25,988 nucleotides of DNA from a virus, in IMG/VR virus record IMGVR_UViG_3300018421_000178, positions 1 to 25,988 of that record; one strand, given 5' to 3'. The notes under the pieces are model-generated. The model ran no database searches. It had not been told where the DNA came from and saw only the letters and a list, made by a program, of their open reading frames with translations. Shown here piece after piece: positions 784-25,988 of the stretch (position 1 is the stretch's first letter; each line of letters starts with the position of its first letter). Both the position numbers and the translations under genes were made by a program.

Positions 784-901
784 TCTTCTTCTTCTTTGCG
801 TAGATTGCTTTCTGTTGTTTAATGGCTTTCTTCTTGGTCATGGGCTTCTTGGTGTTTGTCCCTTTGACCTTGTAACCACTCTTGTACTTCTTTACTGGCA
901 T
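770..901 (-). CDS. 43-residue basic protein overlapping the HTH gene in another frame
   Basis: An open frame from ATG (899-901) to TAG (770-772) encodes a 43-residue protein with 17 Lys and 1 Arg. It begins MPVKKYKSGYKVKGTNTKKP and ends AIYAKKKKNGKR. The ribosome binding site GGAGG lies 9 bases before the ATG, better than many genes here. The pattern GYKVKGT...KKPMTKKKAIKQQKAI recalls small marine-phage proteins with GYKIxxT...KKAAKKQLxAIKANK, a similarity recalled rather than searched. The first 83 bases overlap the 3' end of the helix-turn-helix gene in a different frame, and the last 14 overlap the start of the 109-residue basic gene, so it bridges the two by translational coupling. Function unknown; nucleic-acid binding is plausible from charge. 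Confidence 0.75.
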   Translation of the reverse strand: MPVKKYKSGYKVKGTNTKKPMTKKKAIKQQKAIYAKKKKNGKR

Positions 902-1124
902 CTTTACTACCCTCCAAAACAAACAAATACTCTATCCATAAGAGTACATAATCCTTATCTTTGATCTCAGACAAGGCTCTGAAGAACCATATCAAAGACA
1001 CAACGGATGGTTGGTTGCGTCCTTTTACCCACGCATACACACTGTTCTGGTGGATACCTGCACGTATCGCTACTTTCTTCAGCTCGCCATGTGCAAGATG
1101 ACTCTTCAAAAACTTCTTTAACAT
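819..1124 (-). CDS. Helix-turn-helix (XRE-like) DNA-binding protein
   Basis: This 101-residue protein has one recognisable domain at about residues 13-55. GELKKVAIRAGIHQNSVYAW fits a helix-turn-helix in which AIRAGIHQNSVYAWVKGRNQPS is the turn and recognition helix plus the typical XRE 'W..G...P' segment. The C-terminal third is Gln/Glu/Lys/His-rich and probably disordered; it is read from DNA that also encodes the 43-residue basic protein, which may explain its odd composition. The start overlaps the endolysin stop by 7 bases (ATGTTAA), with AAGGAAG upstream as ribosome binding site. It is the only obvious sequence-specific regulator in the window apart from the small terminase. Its target is not shown; the palindromes at the right end are candidates by inference. 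Confidence 0.78.
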   Translation of the reverse strand: MLKKFLKSHLAHGELKKVAIRAGIHQNSVYAWVKGRNQPSVVSLIWFFRALSEIKDKDYVLLWIEYLFVLEGSKDASKEVQEWLQGQRDKHQEAHDQEESH

Positions 1125-4002: not shown

Positions 4003-7000
4003 CTATCTCTTATTTTTGAGCGACTCTTCTGTACTCTTAATCTCGTTTTGAGCGTTCCTCAATAATCTTTCCATAATAACAGAACGTTTTGTCGCCTTGG
4101 TTGGAGTAAACAATCCTATCATATATAAGTTGTACATGAGATTTACACGTGCATCTAAATCCTGTTGGTTCAAACTTTTTAAGTATACAGATTCTGTTGG
4201 CAATCGTTCTTCCCCTTCGGGAGTTTGTATACGTGGATCTCTATAAGAAAACATTTCAGCTCGTCTTGTTTCCTTTTCATATCTTGATTGCGCTGCTGGA
4301 CCATACGCAAATGGATTGAAAAAATCCAAAGCAGATGATCTTGATGTTACTTCTCCAAACGCAGTCAACCCAAGCATTCTGTGCCAAAGGTATAAGTTAT
4401 ATGAAGCCAATCCCTCATCTGTTCTAGGAAAATCAAAGTATGTTCCTGCTGGATACAGTATCTCTCCTGTTTCAGACCGTACAGGAAAACGAGTCAAAGG
4501 TCTTCCAGGTGTAAGTTCTCTTGGCACAAGTCCATATAGTTTTATCAACTCGAGCATGTTACCATTTTGCTCTGCATCGTATATAAGTTCAGAAGGGAAC
4601 GGTATAGGTCGTTCTTCAAATCTTGCTCTCATACCCTCAAAAACTATATTAAGAAATGGATTGCCTGTTGCATATGTTTGTGCTGCACCTTGTGCTTGTG
4701 TCGAAAATGCTGTACCCATCAAATCATGAAACGTATGTTCCCATTCTTTCTCTTCTGGAGTCTTATTGGAAAAGCCATGAGCAATCGTCAATGACGCACG
4801 TGACATCAAATCAAACATAGCAATCGATGGATTCACAGGACCAGATACATAATAGTCTTGTTCCTCTGTAGATGTTGTAAATATATTAAAGATACGTGAC
4901 TTCTGTTGTTCAGACATCACACGATCTTCTGTATCTCTGTTCAATCTTGCTTGTGCTTTCATCAGTCCCACAGCAGGATTAATAGTATCTCCAAGTACCG
5001 AACGATAAAATGCGTTTATTGTTTCAGCACCCATCGTTCGCATAAAGCTATAAAAGTACAACCAGCTAGAGATATATTTCTTTTCAGCCTGTGACAAAGA
5101 ACCATAGTCCAACATAGATCTTCTGGCTTTCTCTGCTGCTTGTTGTATGCTTTCACCATTCTTGATTGCATCCATAAATACAAATCTACGCATTTCTGTA
5201 TCTTGCATCTTTGCAAACTCTGACCATACATTCTTGCCAGATGGGTCTAGGTGATCAAATATCTTGCGTGCCAATCCTGCTGGATGATTGTAATACCTTG
5301 CAAAACCATCTACTGTCATTCCAGAATCAATCAACAAACGATTGAACTGTGTATCAAGAAAGTCAGCATCAGCTCTTGAAAACTCTACTCCCTCATCAAG
5401 CATAGCTTTGCGTAGTTCTCCTGCTGTCATATCTCGTATTGCACCATCTGCTTGTCGGATAATCACTTCATCAGCAGGTGCAAATAAAACACGATTCGAA
5501 TCTAGAAATCCAGTGTAAGACTTGAATCCCATCTTTTGAGCAAGTGTTGCAACAGCAGGATCTAGCCCCATTGTCATCGCTTGGCCAACAAAACGTGTTG
5601 CTGTTCCTGCTCTCATGCTACCACTACCCAATGAAGCAAAGTATAAATATGGAGCAGTCATACGATTCATACTAAAGAATCTCAAAGATGGAAGTAGACC
5701 TCCACCAAGCATACGTGCAATAGACCAACGCCGAAAAAATCTTGCACCATCTGTCAAATAGTATTGCAAAAACTTAAATGGATTCTCTATTGCAAATCGT
5801 GAATAGCCAAGGTTTGCAAACTTTTGCTCGAGTTCTGCAATAAACTGTTTGGTTTTCTTATTATCTATAATCTCCAACATTTGATTCATCATCTTTTGAT
5901 GTGTATCACCATAGATTACAGCAACATTCTTTGCTCCCAAGTATTCAATACGAGGCTTCAGTCTTCGAACATTGTCTACCATTACATCATTGTTCACACC
6001 AAATCTTCCAAAGTAATCATTCAAAGATTGTATCTGCTGCGTAAACAATCCATCCATCACACCATCACTACGTAGTGTAAGGTTGTTCAAATACTGTGAC
6101 CGCATAGAAGCCAACAATCCGCCTTGCGCAAACAAGTCATCCTTCACCATGTCAAAGATCTTTGCTTCTTCGTCAGTCAATCCTTTCTTGTCAAACTTCT
6201 TAGACATCTTCTGAAAAATATCTTGGAAATCCTTTTCTATTTTATTGAATGTCTGACTTGTTAAATGACCATTACGATACAACTCTACAACCCAATCATC
6301 CATGTCATAGATAAAAGGTGTACCCTCCTTGGATACTTTATCAAGGTATCTTTGTACAAAACTCTTCTTGACTTCGCGACTACTATTCGTCCATATATCT
6401 TTGGCCATACCATCGAACAATCTTTCTCTAATAATATGAGTCATCAGCTCGATCTTGTCATCGTCAATCAATCCCTTTTGATTTGCCATAGATAATGTTA
6501 TGCGCAACTCCTCAGTCATCTGGTCTGAGATTTTTTCTACGTTACTCAATGACAATGCAGAATCTGCTGTACGTTCTAGGTCTACAAATATATCGGGTGA
6601 CTTCGTAATAAAATCATCAATAGCAACCTGCATATCCATCGCACGTTGTGTCTGTACCATTTGCTTTACAAACGGCAAAGTATACACTTCGTCTCCTTTA
6701 TATCCTGCCCTCAATCCATAGTTCTGCAAACTTGGATCTAGTCGTCTCAACTCAGCAATAACTTCTTTGTATGTCTCCAATGTCAAAGGTTTTATATTAT
6801 TGCCGGACCAATACGGCTTGGTCTTATCAATACGTATTACATCATAAATGTTATCAGCCCATCGAGGAGTCAAAGGTTTTACACCCGATGGAGCAACGAA
6901 AAAATCAGCAACCATATTTTTCCATGTACGTGCAGAATATATTTCCTTTGCTGCTACTTGCATGTTTGCTTCGATAAAATCTACTTGTGCAATCAAGTCA

Positions 7001-9879
7001 TCATATCCAATGTCAGAAGCCTTAACTCCCAACTCTTGTGACAAAAACTCTGTAATGTTATCTCGTCCATACTTGTCAGATAGCTGCACCAACTTATTAC
7101 TTGTTGCTATCCTCTTGCTTCGTTCAAGATCGTCACCTGCATCAATAAATGATTCTCGTCTTGTAGGGCTGACATCAAACTCGGGACCAGTACGTACCTG
7201 TCCATTTATGCGCTGCATATCCAATGCCATACCCTGCTCTTGATACCCTTTCCATGTATTATTAAAATGTACCACAGGGTCTGTTCCAGCTGGAGGCTTC
7301 AATGCTTCTACCACTTTATCGGGTGCAGCATTGTGTGTACGTACAGCAGCAGTATTCAACTGCCGAACAGGTACAGGAACATCATCAGACAACTTCAAAA
7401 AGTCTGCAATCTTACTCAGTTGGTTATACTCTCCACCTTTTGTAATCATCAAACGTAGCGCATTTGCAATACCTTTTGCTTCAATCGCAAATGATGATGG
7501 AGCCTGGCCCGATGGTATCAAAGTTTGTCTAACAGCACCCTCGGGTATACCTGCCATTTGTCCTGTCAATGAACCTGTTTTGAGTCGTACACCACCCAAC
7601 ACATCCAAAGCAAACTCTTCCAATACACTGTCTTGCAAGAACTGCAACTCTTCATAAGCTAGCTTTTCTGTTGCGCCATTTGCTATCTTCTGTACTTTCT
7701 GTTGCAACTCAGCAGGTAGTTTTAATCCTGTTCGTGATTGCAATCGAAGAATCTTTTGAGCTGCTCTTGGATGAAGAACATTAGGAGACACTGTTTCAAA
7801 ATATGATCGAACTTGTGTCTCAACTTTCTGCATCGCTGCAGTCTTTCCTGTACGAGGATTGACTACATTCTTGTACGGTACAGCAACATTTTGTCCTACA
7901 TAAATGTAATCATCTGGGATGTTCTTCAAGAAGTTGTCTTTCATTACATCTGCTACTGCATTCCTTACAGCAGTATACACATGCTCAGATTGTCTTGCTA
8001 TTTGTGACAGTTCAAATATACCTGCTTCATTTAATAAGTCGTAGTTTCTTCCAAGAGATATAATCTCATCGGGTGATAACTCTGCTCCTGCCTTTTGCTT
8101 CTTCAATAAATCAAGCGCAGTATTAAATGGAGTTTTAAGTTCGTTGGGAAGACCACCCCCTATAGATTCCCATACTTTTGTATCTTCCATGATTGTTCTT
8201 GCAATAGCGCGATCAATAATCTCTGCATCTCTTTTGGGTTTTTTACCATCACGGATTCTTTCTAGTGTGTCATCTGCAACTTGCTTTGATCTTCGCAATA
8301 CTTCTCGTTCAGTTTTGCCTCCCGTTGCCAAGTCATCAAATGTTTTGTTCATGTTTTCAACAACGTCTTTCACACGCTCAACAGGAACTTCTTCTGTATA
8401 CTTAAAGATTTCATCTACAACAGGATTAGTCGGATTCGAAAACTGTTCCTTTTTAACAATACCATCTGGTCTTGTACCTCCTATTATGTCTTCTGCTTCT
8501 TTTACTGTTGCGTATTGATCTCCAATAACTTCTGCCACTTTGTTTCGAACTGTAGGACGATGGGCTTTTCCACCATTGGCCTTTATCTCTGCTGCTATGC
8601 TCTTACTGGTTTGTCCTGTCTGAACGCTGCGCAAAGCCAAGTCTTGTTCTGCACGTGCGCCCATTCTCTTGATAAGATTCTGTGGTGCTTTCAATCCTTT
8701 CATCACACCAGGTATTCCCGCAGGTGTAGCAGGTATATATATCTCTGGAGCAAAACTGTAGTAATAACTAGGCAACGTACCTGCTGTCATAAAGTATTCA
8801 AGACCACTTGCCTTATCGTCTGGAGGCAATAACTGTGCTTGTACAACATTGAATACACCTTGACCTGTAAGCATGTTGGTTAGTATCTGCCCACCTGTAC
8901 CCTCGATTTCTGTCTCTTTATATCCTGCACCTTTACGTATTTTTGCTGGAGGTGCTTCTCTTTCGCCTGTTGCAAAAAATGATATAGCTTTGTATACAGG
9001 ACTATTTCTAAAACTTTCTTGTGCTGGTCGAAGCAGTAAAGGTTCAGCAACACCGGACAACGTATTCAGCAAACGAAATCCGTAATCCACGGAACTTTCT
9101 GCAAGCACAGCAGGACTCTCGGGTGCCCTACGCACATCGACTTGTGAAAGCATTTCTTCTTCCACTTCTCTATCTATCTCAGCTAACTCTTCCTTTGTCA
9201 AAGTAGGTTCTTTCTCTTCATATACAGGAACCTCTACCTCTACACCAAATAGCCCAGCAGTACTACTTGGAGGTGCCGGACGGTATTTCTTCTCAGCTTT
9301 CTTTTGTTGGATTTTTATTCTTCTAATCTTTTGAGCTCGTCTATCATATTGCTCTATAGCTTCTTGAGTTGTTAGCTGTGTAGGCTTACGTTGTCGCTCA
9401 AACAATGCAGATGTAATCATTTCCATGTCTGTTGCTTTACGTACCTGTCCTGTCTCAGGGTCTTTGATTAACCCCTTTACAGGATCAACAATGTCGCTCA
9501 CTTGAAATGTTGTAGGCATTGTTTCAACAAACTCGCCTGTACCATATCGAGTTCTTCGAGTCTTTGCTGCCAGTTTTTGTTTGCCACGTTCAAATGCTTC
9601 TTGTGGATCTACACCTTGCTTTTCATATTCCGAAGCATAAATATATGGTACTTCTGTTCCAATACCTTCTAATGCTTCTTGTACATCAAAATACCTTTCA
9701 CGTTCTTGCACGCCAGGATCATATGGAGTCTGAACTTCTAAGGCCTGTTCATCACGTAGACGCTTACGCAAATAATCTAACTCTGCAAAGTAGTCATCAG
9801 TTTTGATTTCATCACGTCTATACTTATCTTCAAGTTCGAGCAACTCTCTACGCAAACGTTCTACATTTGTTTCGGCCAT
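4003..9879 (-). CDS. Very large internal virion / ejection protein, 1958 residues
   Basis: This gene fills almost a quarter of the window. The protein opens with a charged coiled-coil region (residues 1-47, ERLRRELLELEDKYRRDE) and is mainly helical. A fairly apolar part near residues 1330-1400 (YYLTDGARFFRRWSIARMLG ... APYLYFASLG) may touch membrane. Residues 1590-1614 (LDYGSLSQAEKKYISSWLYF...) match the 'DY..LT..EK.....PFY.F.R' segment I recall from the C-terminal domain of large phage polyvalent proteins (LPD38). By size and place it corresponds to T7 gp16-type core proteins delivered into the cell envelope with the DNA. I find no lytic transglycosylase or protease motif by eye. I see no cysteine in the whole chain. 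Specific activity unknown. Confidence 0.85.
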   Translation of the reverse strand: MAETNVERLRRELLELEDKYRRDEIKTDDYFAELDYLRKRLRDEQALEVQTPYDPGVQERERYFDVQEALEGIGTEVPYIYASEYEKQGVDPQEAFERGKQKLAAKTRRTRYGTGEFVETMPTTFQVSDIVDPVKGLIKDPETGQVRKATDMEMITSALFERQRKPTQLTTQEAIEQYDRRAQKIRRIKIQQKKAEKKYRPAPPSSTAGLFGVEVEVPVYEEKEPTLTKEELAEIDREVEEEMLSQVDVRRAPESPAVLAESSVDYGFRLLNTLSGVAEPLLLRPAQESFRNSPVYKAISFFATGEREAPPAKIRKGAGYKETEIEGTGGQILTNMLTGQGVFNVVQAQLLPPDDKASGLEYFMTAGTLPSYYYSFAPEIYIPATPAGIPGVMKGLKAPQNLIKRMGARAEQDLALRSVQTGQTSKSIAAEIKANGGKAHRPTVRNKVAEVIGDQYATVKEAEDIIGGTRPDGIVKKEQFSNPTNPVVDEIFKYTEEVPVERVKDVVENMNKTFDDLATGGKTEREVLRRSKQVADDTLERIRDGKKPKRDAEIIDRAIARTIMEDTKVWESIGGGLPNELKTPFNTALDLLKKQKAGAELSPDEIISLGRNYDLLNEAGIFELSQIARQSEHVYTAVRNAVADVMKDNFLKNIPDDYIYVGQNVAVPYKNVVNPRTGKTAAMQKVETQVRSYFETVSPNVLHPRAAQKILRLQSRTGLKLPAELQQKVQKIANGATEKLAYEELQFLQDSVLEEFALDVLGGVRLKTGSLTGQMAGIPEGAVRQTLIPSGQAPSSFAIEAKGIANALRLMITKGGEYNQLSKIADFLKLSDDVPVPVRQLNTAAVRTHNAAPDKVVEALKPPAGTDPVVHFNNTWKGYQEQGMALDMQRINGQVRTGPEFDVSPTRRESFIDAGDDLERSKRIATSNKLVQLSDKYGRDNITEFLSQELGVKASDIGYDDLIAQVDFIEANMQVAAKEIYSARTWKNMVADFFVAPSGVKPLTPRWADNIYDVIRIDKTKPYWSGNNIKPLTLETYKEVIAELRRLDPSLQNYGLRAGYKGDEVYTLPFVKQMVQTQRAMDMQVAIDDFITKSPDIFVDLERTADSALSLSNVEKISDQMTEELRITLSMANQKGLIDDDKIELMTHIIRERLFDGMAKDIWTNSSREVKKSFVQRYLDKVSKEGTPFIYDMDDWVVELYRNGHLTSQTFNKIEKDFQDIFQKMSKKFDKKGLTDEEAKIFDMVKDDLFAQGGLLASMRSQYLNNLTLRSDGVMDGLFTQQIQSLNDYFGRFGVNNDVMVDNVRRLKPRIEYLGAKNVAVIYGDTHQKMMNQMLEIIDNKKTKQFIAELEQKFANLGYSRFAIENPFKFLQYYLTDGARFFRRWSIARMLGGGLLPSLRFFSMNRMTAPYLYFASLGSGSMRAGTATRFVGQAMTMGLDPAVATLAQKMGFKSYTGFLDSNRVLFAPADEVIIRQADGAIRDMTAGELRKAMLDEGVEFSRADADFLDTQFNRLLIDSGMTVDGFARYYNHPAGLARKIFDHLDPSGKNVWSEFAKMQDTEMRRFVFMDAIKNGESIQQAAEKARRSMLDYGSLSQAEKKYISSWLYFYSFMRTMGAETINAFYRSVLGDTINPAVGLMKAQARLNRDTEDRVMSEQQKSRIFNIFTTSTEEQDYYVSGPVNPSIAMFDLMSRASLTIAHGFSNKTPEEKEWEHTFHDLMGTAFSTQAQGAAQTYATGNPFLNIVFEGMRARFEERPIPFPSELIYDAEQNGNMLELIKLYGLVPRELTPGRPLTRFPVRSETGEILYPAGTYFDFPRTDEGLASYNLYLWHRMLGLTAFGEVTSRSSALDFFNPFAYGPAAQSRYEKETRRAEMFSYRDPRIQTPEGEERLPTESVYLKSLNQQDLDARVNLMYNLYMIGLFTPTKATKRSVIMERLLRNAQNEIKSTEESLKNKR

Positions 9880-21188: not shown

Positions 21189-22874
21189 CTATAAAACTTG
21201 TGCAACGGCTTGTGGACTTCCTTGTTGTCCTTGTTCAATCGTTGCTGTAGGTGAAGGTTGTTGTTGTGTTTGTGATAAATCTTGTATTCCTTCGACGTTT
21301 GTCTCGAGGAAATCTTCTGGAAGATCCAACTTGCGTACAAGTTCTTGTAAGACTTTTTGTTGTGGAACTCCCAGCTCCATTAAAACGCCGATTGATTGCA
21401 AGAAGTCCTGCTTCTTCACTGCCTCTGATACTGGTGTCGCTCCTGCATCAAGCGCGTAAAAGCTAAAATCTCCATCCAAATCTTCAGCTCGAACAATCTG
21501 AGTCTTACCATTGATGACAATGACATCGGGTTCATCTTGCAAAAAGATCTTCATCATGCTGATGTATACGGACGCAGTATACTCAATCATCGCATCACGC
21601 TCACGTGCCAATCGTCCAATCTCACTGGAACTGTACGAAGCCAACGCTGTAATCTCTGTGGCTGTTGCACGTGTAGCCTCACCCCTCGTAAAGGGAGCCA
21701 TGACTGATCCACGCTGGAAATCATCATTGACTTGACGAATATATGTTTCCAACTCGGGAGGAACACCTGTATGCGGTACAGCCTGTATCGAGCCACTCAG
21801 ATTCTGACTTGGGCTAAGTTCTGCCTCGATGTACTCACCATCTGCACCTAGTGCCAGTTTTGCCATATCCTCATCGGTAAACACACCTTTCTTTACAATC
21901 CATTGTCGAGCAGCTCTTCGTACCATGGTGGACTGATATGTTCTGATAATGTTGGTTTCCTCCACCTGGCTATACACTCTACGCAGCGCAGAATAACCAC
22001 GCATAGGCAAATCAGGCTGACGAGAAAAGTACAAAGGAATAAGAGGAGCCAAAGGATTATTAGCCGCATCAGTAAATGGTATCTGATCATACTTCTGTAC
22101 CTCAGTCTTCTCTCCATCTCCAATCTCTACCTCAACTCCATCATATAGCCACTTCTCACCATTCGCATAGTCGGGACTCCATACATACATCTTGTTGTTT
22201 TCCAAGTCGTAAAACTCTACAATCTGTATGTATTCAAACGGACTATCGGGTTCATGTCCACTCTCATTCAATGCTGACAGGTTTGCTGACATATATGGTG
22301 CGTTCTCATGCCCACTATCATAGTCCAAGAAACGTATCAACTGGTGTGCTGCATACTTCTTGTTCCCATACTTGGCCTTGGCCTCTTGCAAAGTAATGTG
22401 GTACCTGTGGCCTACGTACTTCTGTTCTATCCAACTGGGTGCATCGGTATCTACAATCACGTCCCAAGCCGCAACCGCTGATACACCCACGCGCTTAAAA
22501 GGATCCGGATGTTGGGTAGCATACAGTTTCAAGAATGCACATGGGTATATCAAAGCGAGTCGTGACACATCCTCTATCTGTGTTCGAACTTTATCAAGAA
22601 ACGCATTGGATAGGGCTTGAACTTTTTGTGAATCCCCTCTTCCTCGTACATCACCCTTGACAATCACAGATGGATTGCGTGAATACAACGAGGCTATATA
22701 ACCCTCTATATATTCATATGCACGTGTTGTCTCAATAAGAATCTGATCGGGTGCGTAATCTTTATCCCAATACCTGGTCATATATGCAGCACGAAGTTTT
22801 CTGAGCTCAGCTTTCTGCTCATCCCAGTATTGTTCGTGTCTACGAAACAATGCTTCTGCAATCTTTGCTTTCAT
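21189..22874 (-). CDS. Portal protein
   Basis: The 561-residue protein forms the ring at the capsid vertex through which DNA enters and leaves. It has a helical N-terminal wing (ALFRRHEQYWDEQKAELRKL), a stretch AYEYIEGYIASLYSRNPSVI (residues about 52-71) typical of podovirus portals, and a middle region PLIPLYFSRQPDLPMRGYSA. A long stem-like helix follows (ATEITALASYSSSEIGRLAR, about 411-430). The C-terminus is a Gln-rich, disordered tail (QTQQQPSPTATIEQGQQGSP). The start overlaps the large terminase stop by 4 bases and has AGGAG upstream. Confidence 0.88.
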   Translation of the reverse strand: MKAKIAEALFRRHEQYWDEQKAELRKLRAAYMTRYWDKDYAPDQILIETTRAYEYIEGYIASLYSRNPSVIVKGDVRGRGDSQKVQALSNAFLDKVRTQIEDVSRLALIYPCAFLKLYATQHPDPFKRVGVSAVAAWDVIVDTDAPSWIEQKYVGHRYHITLQEAKAKYGNKKYAAHQLIRFLDYDSGHENAPYMSANLSALNESGHEPDSPFEYIQIVEFYDLENNKMYVWSPDYANGEKWLYDGVEVEIGDGEKTEVQKYDQIPFTDAANNPLAPLIPLYFSRQPDLPMRGYSALRRVYSQVEETNIIRTYQSTMVRRAARQWIVKKGVFTDEDMAKLALGADGEYIEAELSPSQNLSGSIQAVPHTGVPPELETYIRQVNDDFQRGSVMAPFTRGEATRATATEITALASYSSSEIGRLARERDAMIEYTASVYISMMKIFLQDEPDVIVINGKTQIVRAEDLDGDFSFYALDAGATPVSEAVKKQDFLQSIGVLMELGVPQQKVLQELVRKLDLPEDFLETNVEGIQDLSQTQQQPSPTATIEQGQQGSPQAVAQVL

Positions 22875-24415
22875 TGTGCGCTCCTATAAGGTAATCGCAT
22901 TAATCTTATACGTTTTGCTCGTCGATTGCTAATCAATCTATCCATTAATCCTTGCTTTGCATTACGAACCATATAACTTGGTATATCTCTAGCACACCTG
23001 TAGGCCAATGCCAATGAGTCAGCCAAGTCATCATGCAACCCATTCGGAGCCTCTGGAGCAACTTTATATATCGTCATACTGCGAAGTTCCATCAAAGTTG
23101 TCATATCCAACCTAGACAACATGTCAGAAGAAATCATCTCACGCAAAATCTCGTATGCTTCAATCTTGGACTTTGCACTGGTCACCCAATGCTTGCCCTC
23201 TTCACTGTACCACAGATTGTTATACCCATAGTCAATCAACTTCTGTATGACCACATGACCATGATTGTTCGATTCGCACAGCACCATGGCATCGTTATAC
23301 TTTTGTGCAATCAACATAATCTTCTCGGAAAACTCTACAGGAGTAATCGTATTGCACCTGTACTGATACACTACTTCACGGCTAGAACAAGACACAACAC
23401 AAATGCAACTATAATCACCACCAACGCCACCAGCAACGTCCACTCCGATTGCATATACATCATCGCTGTATACCTCCTTTTCGTATATACGCTCATTACC
23501 ATCAAAGATAATCGGCTCTATACGATCCAACGCATCGGGGTCAAAGTAGGCAGAACTACCAAACGAAAACGCATCATCAATAGACGCAGGATACTCTCGC
23601 TTAAACTTGTCAATGCCAATGGTCGCAACCTGTTCTCTACGCCACTGAATCTGGTCGTCATCCAAACCATACAAGTTTATTAGCTTCTGCTCTTCCTCAG
23701 TATATATCATGTCAGTCGGTGCTGGAGTCCTGTAGTTCTGATGTTGCCACCACCAAAACGTTACAAGTGTCCACCCATTGTCGGGTGCCTCCTTACACAA
23801 CTTGTGGAACACATCACCCACAGTATTGGGTGTAGACTCAATCACAATCTGACCTTTACCCACTGTCGCTACAACTTGGGCCAACACTTCCTCTTGATCT
23901 GGGTAGAAAGCAAACTCGCTCAAATGCGCAGCGTTCAGCGTAAATGAACGAGTCCCTCCACTGGATCTAGCAGTATACGATGATAGGCCAGCCTGTGTGT
24001 CATCAAAAATCAAATCCGTCGTATTGTCTATCGAACAATGACGCTTCAACATCTCCGGCAATCCTGCCAAGAAGTTGTTGTCCATCTTCCGCAAGTGCTT
24101 CGCAGAACGATCATGAAAACTCAATACACCATACTTGATTGGGTCTTTACTGGTGTACACTTTCCAAAACGCATACGCACGCAATAGTGTACTCACTCCA
24201 ATCTGTCTGGGCTTCACTACAATAATCTTCTTCGAGCTGCATATCTGCTGCAATAACTGTTCCTGTTCTGGGTACAGTTCAAACTGTTTATATGCACCAC
24301 TATACTTGTCTTGTACGCGCAGCAGTCGAAAGAACTTGATCGGGTCTGCCAACACATCCTGCAAGTCTTTGCGATGTCTACGAGGAACCTTGTACGATAT
24401 ATAGGGTAGACTCAT
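22871..24415 (-). CDS. terL: Terminase large subunit (ATPase and nuclease)
   Basis: This motor pumps DNA into the procapsid and cuts it. The 514 residues hold an N-terminal ATPase and a C-terminal RNase H-like nuclease. The Walker A region is IVVKPRQIGVSTL (65-77): the usual GKS/T lysine is Val74 while Lys68 and Arg70 lie earlier, as in variant Walker A loops. The Walker B-like segment is AHLSEFAF (163-170) with Glu167, and the coupling motif is ESTP (193-196). Nuclease acids are Asp326 (GVDVAGG), Glu381 (CESNNHG) and Asp462/463/466 (HDDLADSLAL). It overlaps the small subunit gene by 4 bases (ATGA). I cannot assign cos or headful packaging from this alone. Confidence 0.95.
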   Translation of the reverse strand: MSLPYISYKVPRRHRKDLQDVLADPIKFFRLLRVQDKYSGAYKQFELYPEQEQLLQQICSSKKIIVVKPRQIGVSTLLRAYAFWKVYTSKDPIKYGVLSFHDRSAKHLRKMDNNFLAGLPEMLKRHCSIDNTTDLIFDDTQAGLSSYTARSSGGTRSFTLNAAHLSEFAFYPDQEEVLAQVVATVGKGQIVIESTPNTVGDVFHKLCKEAPDNGWTLVTFWWWQHQNYRTPAPTDMIYTEEEQKLINLYGLDDDQIQWRREQVATIGIDKFKREYPASIDDAFSFGSSAYFDPDALDRIEPIIFDGNERIYEKEVYSDDVYAIGVDVAGGVGGDYSCICVVSCSSREVVYQYRCNTITPVEFSEKIMLIAQKYNDAMVLCESNNHGHVVIQKLIDYGYNNLWYSEEGKHWVTSAKSKIEAYEILREMISSDMLSRLDMTTLMELRSMTIYKVAPEAPNGLHDDLADSLALAYRCARDIPSYMVRNAKQGLMDRLISNRRAKRIRLMRLPYRSAQ

Positions 24416-24795
24416 TTATCCTTGACCAACTTCAAGATGTTCTTCATCTCACCATCATTGGCATCGCTAAACTTACCCTTGACTCCCTTCTTATTACGAA
24501 ACGTGTCAATCACATACTTGGCAGCATTCACCTTAGCACCATCGTTCTGTCCATTTTCCATGACAATCTGTAACGTCTTGTACGCTTGGTCCAACAAGTT
24601 GCGCTCACGTACCTCCGTATCAAACAACGGCTCATTGTACCCCATGATCAAAGCCTTGAACTCCGGCTTCTGCTTCCATTGAATCACAGTCTGTCGAGCA
24701 ACACCAACCTCATTGGCAATCTGCTTCAAACTCATGTATCCCTGCGCACACAACAACGCAGCCTTTTTATGTTTCTGTGTAATCTTCATCGCCAT
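24412..24795 (-). CDS. terS: Terminase small subunit
   Basis: The 127-residue protein recognises viral DNA and hands it to the large subunit. Residues 20-42 (YMSLKQIANEVGVARQTVIQ then WK) form a clear helix-turn-helix. A central helical part, RERNLLDQAYKTLQIVMENG, should oligomerise into a ring, and a Lys-rich tail ends KNILKLVKDK. Length and gene order are typical. Its ATG is one base after the resolvase stop, with AGGT seven bases upstream. Confidence 0.9.
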   Translation of the reverse strand: MAMKITQKHKKAALLCAQGYMSLKQIANEVGVARQTVIQWKQKPEFKALIMGYNEPLFDTEVRERNLLDQAYKTLQIVMENGQNDGAKVNAAKYVIDTFRNKKGVKGKFSDANDGEMKNILKLVKDK

Positions 24796-24796
24796 A

Positions 24797-25249
24797 TCAC
24801 AACCTGCTTATCTGTATTTGAACCTCTGGCTCTTGGTAATCAGCACAATACCATTTTTGTGCGAGAACCTCAACCACTTGACTATCATCTTCCCAAACCT
24901 TAGCCTGGTTACAAGCATCCATCACCAGCTTCAAATAGTTATCTACATCGGGCTTGGTCGTCTTCAACACCCTGTCACCCTTACCCATACTAACCGGACG
25001 CTTGCACATAAACTTACAATACAACGCAACAGGAACTCCTTTGGGAATCTGCTCACCACGATTCTCCGCAATCTTTTTCGCAATCACATCTGTCGCTTCT
25101 TTCGTCTTCTTCGGAGTATATGTTCTCCCTGCCTTAGTAAATCTCGGCCTACCCTTTGCTACCGGATTCATTCTGACTATAAAAGTCTGTATTTTGGTTG
25201 GAATCGTTCCTTTGTGTTCTGACATACCTGCTCCATAATCTGCGTACAC
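24797..25249 (-). CDS. RusA-like Holliday junction resolvase
   Basis: The 150-residue enzyme cuts four-way DNA junctions as a dimer. KGRPRFTKAGRTYTPKKT (residues 32-49) is the family N-terminal signature. The catalytic acids align exactly with E. coli RusA Asp70, Asp72 and Asp91 as Asp101, Asp103 (KPDVDNYLKL) and Asp122 (WEDDSQV). VQIQI near the end forms the dimer strand. I use the GTG at 25249 because AGGAGG lies 6 bases upstream; ATG at residue 9 is a possible alternative start. It is the first gene of the late operon, just before the terminases, where a resolvase can remove branches from replicating DNA ahead of packaging. Confidence 0.92.
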   Translation of the reverse strand: MYADYGAGMSEHKGTIPTKIQTFIVRMNPVAKGRPRFTKAGRTYTPKKTKEATDVIAKKIAENRGEQIPKGVPVALYCKFMCKRPVSMGKGDRVLKTTKPDVDNYLKLVMDACNQAKVWEDDSQVVEVLAQKWYCADYQEPEVQIQISRL

Positions 25250-25307
25250 GGTATCCTCCTGCGTGATGTTTCAAAATAAATATATCACTCAAAAAGCATG
25301 TGCAAAA

Positions 25308-25318
25308 ATAGTATAACA
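25308..25318 (-). promoter_or_regulatory. Candidate extended -10 promoter of the late operon
   Basis: The minus strand reads TGTTATACTAT, a TGn extension plus TATACT, about 60 bases before the resolvase GTG, with start expected near 25301. The -35 region (GGGCAC at 17 bases) is poor. It differs at one base from the motif upstream of the capsid gene. Confidence 0.5.
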
Positions 25319-25428
25319 AAAACCTGTCCGCAGTGCCCTAAAACAACCAGAATGTTAAAAAGTAATCTAGATATTTTTTAGGCTCCCCATTTTTAGCTTA
25401 TTTGTGATTTTGGGGGGGTACCCGACAC

Positions 25429-25554
25429 TGAACGCGCGATCAGTATCCGATCAGTGTTTGGTGGGTTGGATATGCTGAACGGGTGTACAGTACTGTACAG
25501 GAGCTCAGTGGTAGTTGGCGTGCTGAACAGTGTTCACTGCTGAACACGTGTCCA
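25429..25554 (+). repeat. Operator-like sites A-D (TGAAC dyads)
   Basis: Four dyads share the left half TGAAC, always preceded by C: TGAACGCGCGATCA (25429-25442), TGAACGGGTGTACA (25476-25489), TGAACAGTGTTCA (25524-25536, a perfect odd-length palindrome) and TGAACACGTGTCCA (25541-25554). Starts A, B and C are 47 and 48 bases apart. The right halves vary around GTNCA. This looks like binding sites for a dimeric regulator, or iterons of an initiator. Confidence 0.65.
25484..25499. repeat. 16-bp perfect palindrome overlapping site B
   Basis: TGTACAGTACTGTACA is a perfect palindrome whose first six bases are also the right half of operator-like site B, so two dyads are interlocked here. Confidence 0.8.
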
Positions 25555-25560
25555 GTACCT

Positions 25561-25585
25561 AGTAATATACTCGTTGGTAGAATAA
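25561..25585 (+). promoter_or_regulatory. Bipartite element, copy 1, with candidate extended -10
   Basis: AGTAATATAC, six bases, then GTAGAATAA. The second part lies in TGGTAGAAT (25575-25583), which fits an extended -10 promoter reading rightward. It begins 7 bases after operator-like site D. A second copy is at 25826-25850. Confidence 0.45.
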
Positions 25586-25638
25586 TGGATAGGTATTGGC
25601 TCCGCGGTTCCGGCTACTCGATAGACGATCGCTCCCTT

Positions 25639-25675
25639 TGGTCGCTCAGTGCGCGGCCATTATGAACTCATGAGT
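25639..25675. repeat. Hairpin and short palindrome
   Basis: TGGTCGC and GCGGCCA (25639-25659) can pair over a 7-base loop with one G-T wobble. ACTCATGAGT (25666-25675) is a perfect 10-bp palindrome just beyond. No T-tract follows, so this is not a typical terminator. Confidence 0.5.
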
Positions 25676-25713
25676 AGGTTATTGGTACCTCGTGCTAATG
25701 GGCAATAATCTAC

Positions 25714-25740
25714 TCACTAGTAGAATAGTATTGCTAGTGA
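25714..25740. repeat. Inverted repeat TCACTAG / CTAGTGA
   Basis: Seven-base perfect arms enclose 13 bases that contain another TAGAAT (in TAGTAGAATA, 25718-25727). The arrangement places a -10-like sequence inside a dyad. Confidence 0.55.
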
Positions 25741-25759
25741 TGGGTGGAAGCGGATTTTC

Positions 25760-25813
25760 CGAACACTGTTCACATAGCCCAGGGTATCATTCTCGCATAC
25801 TGAACACTGTTAA
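25760..25813 (+). repeat. Operator-like sites E and F
   Basis: CGAACACTGTTCA (25760-25772) and TGAACACTGTTAA (25801-25813) are 13-bp dyads of the same kind as sites A-D and share the core GAACACTGTT. They start 41 bases apart and lie upstream of bipartite copy 2. Confidence 0.62.
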
Positions 25814-25825
25814 ACTACGGAACGC

Positions 25826-25850
25826 AGTAATATACCTGGCAGTAGATAAA
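25826..25850 (+). repeat. Bipartite element, copy 2
   Basis: AGTAATATAC, six bases, then GTAGATAAA. The first part is identical to copy 1 and the second agrees at 7 of 9 bases with the same spacer length. It follows operator-like site F by 12 bases. Confidence 0.5.
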
Positions 25851-25869
25851 TAGTCGAAGCGTCCTAAAT

Positions 25870-25881
25870 GTAGAGCTCTAC
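25870..25881. repeat. 12-bp perfect palindrome GTAGAGCTCTAC
   Basis: A perfect dyad followed 6 bases later by another AGTAGAATA (25887-25895), so the pairing of a dyad with a TAGAAT element occurs again here. Confidence 0.6.
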
Positions 25882-25904
25882 TTGTGAGTAGAATAAAATA
25901 TAGC

Positions 25905-25926
25905 TGTTCATCTGTTCAATGTGTTC
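25905..25926 (+). repeat. Three direct TGTTC half-sites
   Basis: TGTTCA at 25905-25910, TGTTCA at 25913-25918 and TGTTC at 25922-25926 are tandem copies of the operator half-site in the opposite orientation to the left halves of sites A-F. They lie about 43 bases upstream of TATAAT. Gaps between the GTTC cores are 4 and 5 bases, so they do not fit the alphaproteobacterial LexA box GTTC-N7-GTTC. Confidence 0.5.
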
Positions 25927-25968
25927 TTCGTATTTCCTCAACTTTATAGAAGATCCTTTACACTCGCC

Positions 25969-25974
25969 TATAAT
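25969..25974 (+). promoter_or_regulatory. Candidate -10 box TATAAT, rightward
   Basis: An exact consensus -10 hexamer, with transcription expected near the right edge of the window. No consensus -35 is present at 16-18 bases, so it may need an activator or may be chance in A+T-rich DNA. Confidence 0.3.
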
Positions 25975-25988
25975 GTAAGAGAATCCTC

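Follow-up and report, generated by a model that had tools for sequence, protein, structure and literature searches.

The window considered here is the whole of a virus record of 25,988 bp, whose main genes are read leftward, from rusA through terS, terL, the portal and major head protein genes and others to a cytosine methylase fragment. To the right of rusA lie 739 bp without a convincing gene (25250-25988; hereafter, the array region). In the relatives L005, L006 and L012, an oppositely read operon begins past this region, and it follows that the array region is the gap between divergent early and late operons. The early rightward operon of these relatives comprises small genes together with genes for a ribbon-helix-helix (RHH) protein and for a helicase-primase (747 aa in L006, with a VapE-like domain, E=2.1e-64), the RHH gene overlapping the start of the VapE-like helicase-primase gene. 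The window stops short of the early genes, and its own RHH gene is therefore not seen.

Searching IMG/VR with TerL yielded 18 relatives, and a search with the TerL alignment yielded 84, of which the best 80, reaching down to distant ones, were kept. Among 50,697 phage records, we found no close relative of this phage group and no DNA match, all protein matches being below 60% identity and over part of the query; likewise, a scan of GTDB genome contigs with the TerL alignment returned no relative, so no host or prophage. The phage is lytic-looking, and Pfam named no CI-like repressor or integrase among 29 scanned ORFs, a subset of those of the window, L006 and L012. A leftward protein of 1,958 aa, encoded at 4003-9879 of the window, has no Pfam match.

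The dyads of the array region are collected in Table 1. Those containing GAAC are of two types, even (CTGAAC-N4-GTTCAG) and odd (GAACANTGTTC), and in the window their order is E-E-E-O-E, with O1 degenerate; O1 counts as a site at the same place in L003, L005, L010 and L012, and by the same rule it does not in the window. The other palindrome, motif B, has the form TAAYCTACT-N4-AGTAGATAA. When up to 2 mismatches are allowed, the 739-bp region holds 5 B, 4 even and 3 odd sites, and none of the three counts was reached in dinucleotide shuffles of the region (0/1000). A looser search for odd dyads over the whole window, with 3 mismatches, found 11 where 14.7 are expected, that is, no excess over chance.

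Table 1. Genes and sequence features of the window, with positions and strand.
Feature	Position	Strand	Remark
Late XRE-like HTH protein, candidate GAAC-dyad binder	819..1124	-	Pfam HTH_3 at only E=0.065
Terminase large subunit	22871..24415	-	Pfam Terminase_6C; PHROG 2
Candidate terminase small subunit with HTH	24412..24795	-	Pfam HTH_Tnp_1_2 and Terminase_5
rusA, opening gene of the late (leftward) operon	24797..25249	-	Pfam RusA, E=1.5e-25
Candidate leftward late promoter, extended -10 TGTTATACT	25310..25318	-	
CCCC...GGGGGGG inverted repeat, left of the array	25385..25418	.	Encloses palindrome TTGACATGTCAA in several relatives (e.g. L003, L010)
Even dyad E1	25428..25443	.	1 mismatch to CTGAACNNNNGTTCAG
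Odd dyad O1, degenerate	25448..25460	.	2 mismatches to CGAACANTGTTCG
Even dyad E2	25475..25490	.	47 bp past E1
Even dyad E3	25493..25508	.	18 bp past E2; 2 mismatches
Odd dyad O2	25524..25536	.	TGAACAGTGTTCA
Even dyad E4	25540..25555	.	Operator of the earlier note ahead of copy 1
B site 1	25563..25584	+	TAATATACTCGTTGGTAGAATA; copy 1 of the earlier note; matrix 28.8
B site 2, degenerate	25660..25681	.	3 mismatches in the 12-base core; matrix 23.9, minus strand
B site 3	25706..25727	+	TAATCTACTCACTAGTAGAATA; perfect core palindrome; matrix 34.9
Odd dyad O3	25760..25772	.	
Odd dyad O4	25801..25813	.	Operator of the earlier note ahead of copy 2
B site 4	25828..25849	+	Copy 2 of the earlier note; matrix 27.4
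B site 5	25874..25895	+	Perfect core palindrome; 46 bp past site 4; matrix 14.2
Tandem TGTTCA-like half-sites, 8-9 bp apart	25905..25927	+	Similar runs in L003, L006, L012

An earlier note on this DNA had described a cassette present twice in the region, consisting of an operator-like dyad, AGTAATATAC, six bases and an element beginning with GTAGA, and had taken it for a repeated operator-promoter module through which one regulator would control several rightward starts. The letters are indeed there: the window has AGTAATATAC at 25561 and at 25826, a distance of 265 bp, and nowhere else (0.02 copies expected in shuffles), each copy being followed by six bases and then by GTAGAATAA (copy 1) or GTAGATAAA (copy 2), both beginning with GTAGA. 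Furthermore, the letters TGGTAGAAT, claimed as an extended -10 in copy 1, are present, as are the additional copies TAGTAGAATA at 25718 and AGTAGAATA at 25887. The element GTAGAATA is found three times (25577, 25720 and 25888) against an expectation of 0.74 but, since three or more also turn up in 2 of 100 shuffles, its count by itself is weak evidence. A dyad does precede each copy, but both its kind and its distance differ: copy 1 follows the even-type CTGAACACGTGTCCAG (25540-25555) by 5 bp, and copy 2 follows the odd-type TGAACACTGTTAA (25801-25813) by 12 bp.

In fact, the real unit is not the cassette but motif B, a palindrome that spans both cassette halves. The two copies are degenerate examples of it (B sites 1 and 4), and the extra TAGTAGAATA and AGTAGAATA copies are B sites 3 and 5. 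We built a matrix from 25 B sites of six relatives (L003, L004, L005, L006, L010 and L012, with 2 to 8 sites each), leaving the window out, and its five top places in the 25,988 bp all fall in 25250-25988 (core starts 25566, 25663, 25709, 25831 and 25877), with scores from 34.9 to 14.2 against 5.0 for the next place in the window; the matrix correlates with its own reverse complement at r=0.87. The two ways of counting differ slightly, since the five B sites with up to 2 mismatches include a match at 25938 without matrix support, and the matrix adds the more degenerate 25663.

Among the loci scanned, B clusters occur only in the clade of the window, and L007, whose TerL is 95% identical, has no B within the 470 bp covered, though odd dyads are present there. 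We also considered B as a widespread or host site and set this aside: of the 10 stretches that a two-site pattern picked out of all IMG/VR contigs, 3 belong to this clade and the remaining 7 lie in other contigs, where the repeats are different. In L006 (8740-8960), a B-pair cassette is seemingly duplicated into two pairs, the inner 30 bp of which are nearly identical, with eight B sites at up to 2 mismatches. A B-like palindrome lies within the portal coding sequence of L004 (3777, with L025 at the same position) and of L021 (8929), where it is probably a codon coincidence kept through protein conservation.

As for the GAAC dyads, an RNA or cruciform hairpin is not favoured, several even sites carrying the same arm mismatch (GTACAG vs CTGAAC), so that the arm changes, by eye, are shared and not compensating. 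The Rfam scan of 24700-25988 gave only mir-199 (E=0.21, 19.4 bits vs a gathering score of 60). Dyads resembling CTGAAC-N4-GTTCAG, partly 43 and 16 bp apart, were also seen in the GC-rich contigs L119, L123 and L125 (L125, 5554-6780), which are outside the TerL relatives; they adjoin TTGACGTGTCAAG, and the same combination occurs in relatives of the window. Dense even-type dyads, ~17-25 bp apart, lie in L120 (12406-12642) and L128 (5659-5895), apparently near-copies in opposite orientation.

The arrangement of the sites follows a recognizable spacing. In L003 and L010, the GAAC dyads have the order even-odd-even-even-odd-even, with centre gaps of 18.5/28.5/19/29.5/17.5 bp and 18.5/27.5/19/29.5/17.5 bp, respectively; L005 has the same order as L003, with gaps of 18.5, 28.5, 18, 18.5 and 28.5 bp, and the array of L012 starts with 18.5, 28.5 and 19 bp. 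The alternating gaps of ~18.5 and ~28.5 bp add up to 46-47 bp, their difference being roughly one turn of the helix, and pairs at a distance of 46-47 bp are found in all three families (B, even and odd). In particular, a 46-bp step separates B pairs in the window (25663/25709, which are B sites 2 and 3, and 25831/25877) and in L003, L004, L006 and L012, and steps of 46 and 47 bp separate odd dyads of L031; the B sites of L005 and L010 are without such a pair (gaps of 31 and 33 bp). A first spacing test placed 26 of 48 gaps in intervals picked after the data had been seen, with a random mean of 6.0. Because of this post hoc choice, the test was repeated on other lineages only, namely, the loci outside the clade of the window plus L007, which had been looked at before and are thus not fully blind; there, 14 of 33 adjacent gaps fell in the predicted intervals (random mean 4.5; 0/10,000).

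Related phages tend to keep this spacing and to change the site sequences. Both dyad types occur in L018; even and odd dyads might be bound by different proteins, since L009 has only the former and L031, L116, L007 and L006 only the latter. In L016, even and odd dyads are interleaved with five TGACAG-N-CTGTCA-like dyads, at offsets of 207-311 to the right of rusA, and L036 has ATGAAANTTTCAT dyads 19 bp apart together with two TTTATG-N7-CATAAA-like dyads 33 bp apart. Since the sets differ among the loci of the relatives, the site families come and go separately. The left part of the control region of L116 (589-664) holds two near-identical tandem long dyads, TGGCATG-CTCTTGCA-GTTGCAAAGAGC-TGCCA.

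With regard to promoters, the scan for consensus promoters over 25200-25988 returned 6 promoter-like sites on both strands, compared to 2.3 +/- 1.6 in shuffles, and in one of them (25699-25726), the -10 is the right arm of B site 3. In the cassettes, TAGAAT/TAGATA resembles a -10, and in copy 1, a TG stands one base upstream. However, this TG lies in the variable centre of the palindrome, and its position is not kept in L003, L010 and L012; no conserved TTGACA-like box was seen 17 bp upstream of the B sites, and a conserved TGnTATAAT-like box, as expected of a sigma-70 extended -10 module, does not accompany every copy. Alignment with related phages, which the earlier note had proposed as a check, keeps the dyads but neither the TG nor a -35, and of the proposed operator-promoter module, the operator half is supported, with B and GAAC dyads recurring in relatives, while the promoter half is not.

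More conserved promoter-like elements seem instead to flank the array. Positions 25301-25317 of the window are invariant in 8 of 8 aligned near-clade loci and read leftward as GTTATACT..., preceded in 7 of the 8 by a T that completes TGTTATACT; this element was not seen in L009 or L016. On the early side, candidate rightward boxes with TTGACR were found in relatives, TTGACA-17-TAAGAT in L009 and TTGACG-17-TATATT in L116, in both of which they lie beyond the array; the early promoter of the window is past the window end. A point against an operator role is that the array overlaps neither candidate promoter, the nearest GAAC dyad being ~110 bp from the candidate late -10.

Two proteins are candidates for binding these sites. 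For the RHH protein (4861-5097 in L006 and 5933-6160 in L012), the strand AYMLRMD is shared by all three B-bearing phages with a readable gene (L005, L006 and L012), and the B cluster is absent in 4 of the 4 readable phages with other strands (CYPLQLD in L018, TYPMSMD in L036, VYPLKLD in L042 and VYPIKMD in the near-identical L116/L117, counted once); these counts leave out L111, L112, L115, L118 and L032, whose control region is missing or only partly covered, and L031, whose strand is unreadable. For the late XRE-like protein, the recognition helix NSVY[AC]W.KGRNQP is present in all nine distinct phages that have a GAAC array and in which both are readable (the window, L004, L005, L006, L008/G006, L012, L018, L031 and L116, with L117 in agreement), and the changed helix NTVYSW occurs in L036 and L042, both without an array (at most 1 GAAC site per 600 bp). 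With an array defined by three GAAC sites in 600 bp, none of the four records of 30-33 kb lacking an XRE match (G021, G022, G023 and G031) has one (0/4 with at least 3 sites). In the parts covered, these four have at most 2 GAAC sites in 600 bp; L046 (G021) is scored accordingly as without array, and L059 (G032, no XRE match) was outside the site scan. The XRE counts leave out L110, L111, L112, L115, L118 and L032 (helix unchanged) and L037 and L039 (helix changed), the control region of which is missing or only partly covered. L070 is a counter-example, with two clear even sites 31 bp apart and no XRE profile match, and GAAC arrays without an XRE match occur in L010, L007 and L016, on fragment records of 24.4, 14.3 and 7.5 kb. 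Since co-occurrence follows the phage tree, the evidence it provides is weak.

The predicted structures are consistent with these assignments. The RHH model (mean pLDDT 71.7, with block means of 84-95 over residues 11-50) has RHH topology and matches NikA, CopG and Arc structures, with target TM-scores of ~0.6 to 0.8, and the XRE model (pLDDT 92.6) has an XRE fold and matches C.BclI, P22 c2 and 434 Cro at 0.5 to 0.6; the Foldseek E-values are all above 0.05 (best 0.28 for RHH and 0.074 for XRE), and the Pfam RHH_1 and HTH_3 scores are below the gathering scores. A phage-encoded protein of predicted RHH fold is found in relatives and not in the window fragment. A 116-aa HTH protein of L006 was discarded as a common regulator, as it turned up in just two records of 23, L006 itself and one with a weak match.

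On these grounds, we propose, with about as much belief as doubt, that the region is a multi-site operator array for two regulators that would act as an early/late switch. The GAAC dyads, at centre distances of 18.5 or 28.5 bp, would be filled cooperatively by the late XRE/Cro-like protein to form a lattice, and the B palindromes would be occupied by the early RHH protein. The two nucleoprotein complexes would then switch transcription between the flanking early and late promoters, setting the early/late order. A single regulator for all modules, as had been suggested, seems too simple, at least two site families being present. All the binding assignments are inferred from the sequences, as are the sign of the control and whatever function the 46-47-bp pairs have. 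It is possible to hypothesize further, although quite tentatively, that selection preserves above all the geometry: with spacings of 18.5, 28.5 or 46-47 bp, the dyads would make up a fixed lattice of nucleoprotein, open to several unrelated DNA-binding proteins, and close relatives would swap site sequence and recognition residues together and leave the lattice intact. If the spacing is kept while site sequences are exchanged, this would show regulator specificity evolving without dismantling the control region. For a phage group whose control logic has so far been readable only from sequence, exact sites and two candidate proteins identified by name are now available.

The strongest rival, a serious one that we consider possible but distinctly short of probable, is an origin of replication, in which the dyads would be iterons for a phage initiator (the VapE-like helicase-primase or the coupled RHH protein) and the AT-rich right half would open. 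It holds this rank because, in the L006 early operon, the genes of the helicase-primase and the RHH protein overlap and because a phage satellite origin with semi-palindromic iterons exists (PMC7145576); also fitting are the large size of the noncoding region, its many repeats and the AT-rich right side that it has, by eye, in relatives. However, the array spacing is unlike the regular direct-repeat spacing of classical iterons, the base skew would be explained equally by transcription direction alone, and the site families change faster than the helicase-primase, the array of L006 having no even dyads and that of L005 four, with helicase-primases 84% identical. Operator array and origin could both be true.

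A packaging site (pac or cos) for the terminase small subunit, encoded two genes downstream, is improbable. The array does lie upstream of rusA-terS-terL, and the contigs of the window and of 8 relatives end less than ~1 kb from rusA on this side. However, the ends are scattered over distances of 244 to 1036 bp from rusA and do not fall at one base, assemblies can break at repeats without any other cause, and a similar terS is found in L015, which has neither a GAAC array nor a B cluster. A physical genome end was rejected, as the contig ends of the relatives do not coincide.

Just as unlikely, in our view, is that the sites belong to a host regulator, the even dyad being a LexA-type box (GAAC-N4-GTTC) by which the phage reads the host SOS response. 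GAACN4GTTC occurs as a term in two LexA papers (PMC2248561 and PMC4234289), and even dyads recur near TTGACGTGTCAA in the GC-rich L119, L123 and L125, outside the TerL relatives. However, there are many fixed-spacing sites with odd-spaced GAAC dyads interleaved, LexA is said to need rigid spacers and CI repressors not to (PMC8565304), and motif B would be left unexplained. Last comes the view that each cassette is an operator with its own rightward promoter, which we reject as very improbable because the right arm of the B palindrome supplies the -10-like letters, so that the palindrome explains them, and neither TG nor -35 is seen to be conserved, although promoter-like matches in the region outnumber those in shuffles.

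In control regions of the lambda OR/OL type, dyads cluster with a fixed distance between centres, flanked by divergently transcribed units, and Cro/CI-like proteins bind them cooperatively. The array region resembles them: it is an intergenic control region between divergent units, one dyad recurs in it several times at regular centre distances, and cooperative binding is predicted for it. Unlike lambda, it has two unrelated site families, more sites, and sites that, judged from the candidate boxes, do not overlap their promoters but stand away from them, and no CI-like or integrase gene was seen among the ORFs scanned here. In stoperators, the site specificity differs between related phages. 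Many binding sites of the phage regulator per phage are described for the stoperators of cluster A mycobacteriophages (PMC9283540), and many regulator sites per phage are likewise predicted here; different from the asymmetric, genome-wide stoperators, the present sites are palindromic and clustered in one region. Motif B, a palindrome with a predicted RHH binder, recalls the operators of the Arc/CopG/MobC type, and the Arc operator also contains AGTAGA. According to PMC4175270, MobC binds as an RHH dimer to a roughly 16-bp imperfect palindrome, at one site between -35 and -10, whereas here 2 to 8 sites per relative lie between operons. The PLE RepA iterons (PMC7145576) belong to a phage satellite, whose initiator binds these semi-palindromic repeats within noncoding DNA, and the repeats described here are similar in both form and setting; PLE RepA is of the RepA_N family, and our Pfam scans named no such protein. 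Among the open-access titles listed in our searches, none describes such alternating arrays in this phage group. Thus, the ingredients, namely, multi-site operators and RHH and XRE regulators, are known; what is new is that two families are interleaved at a shared spacing and turn over between relatives.
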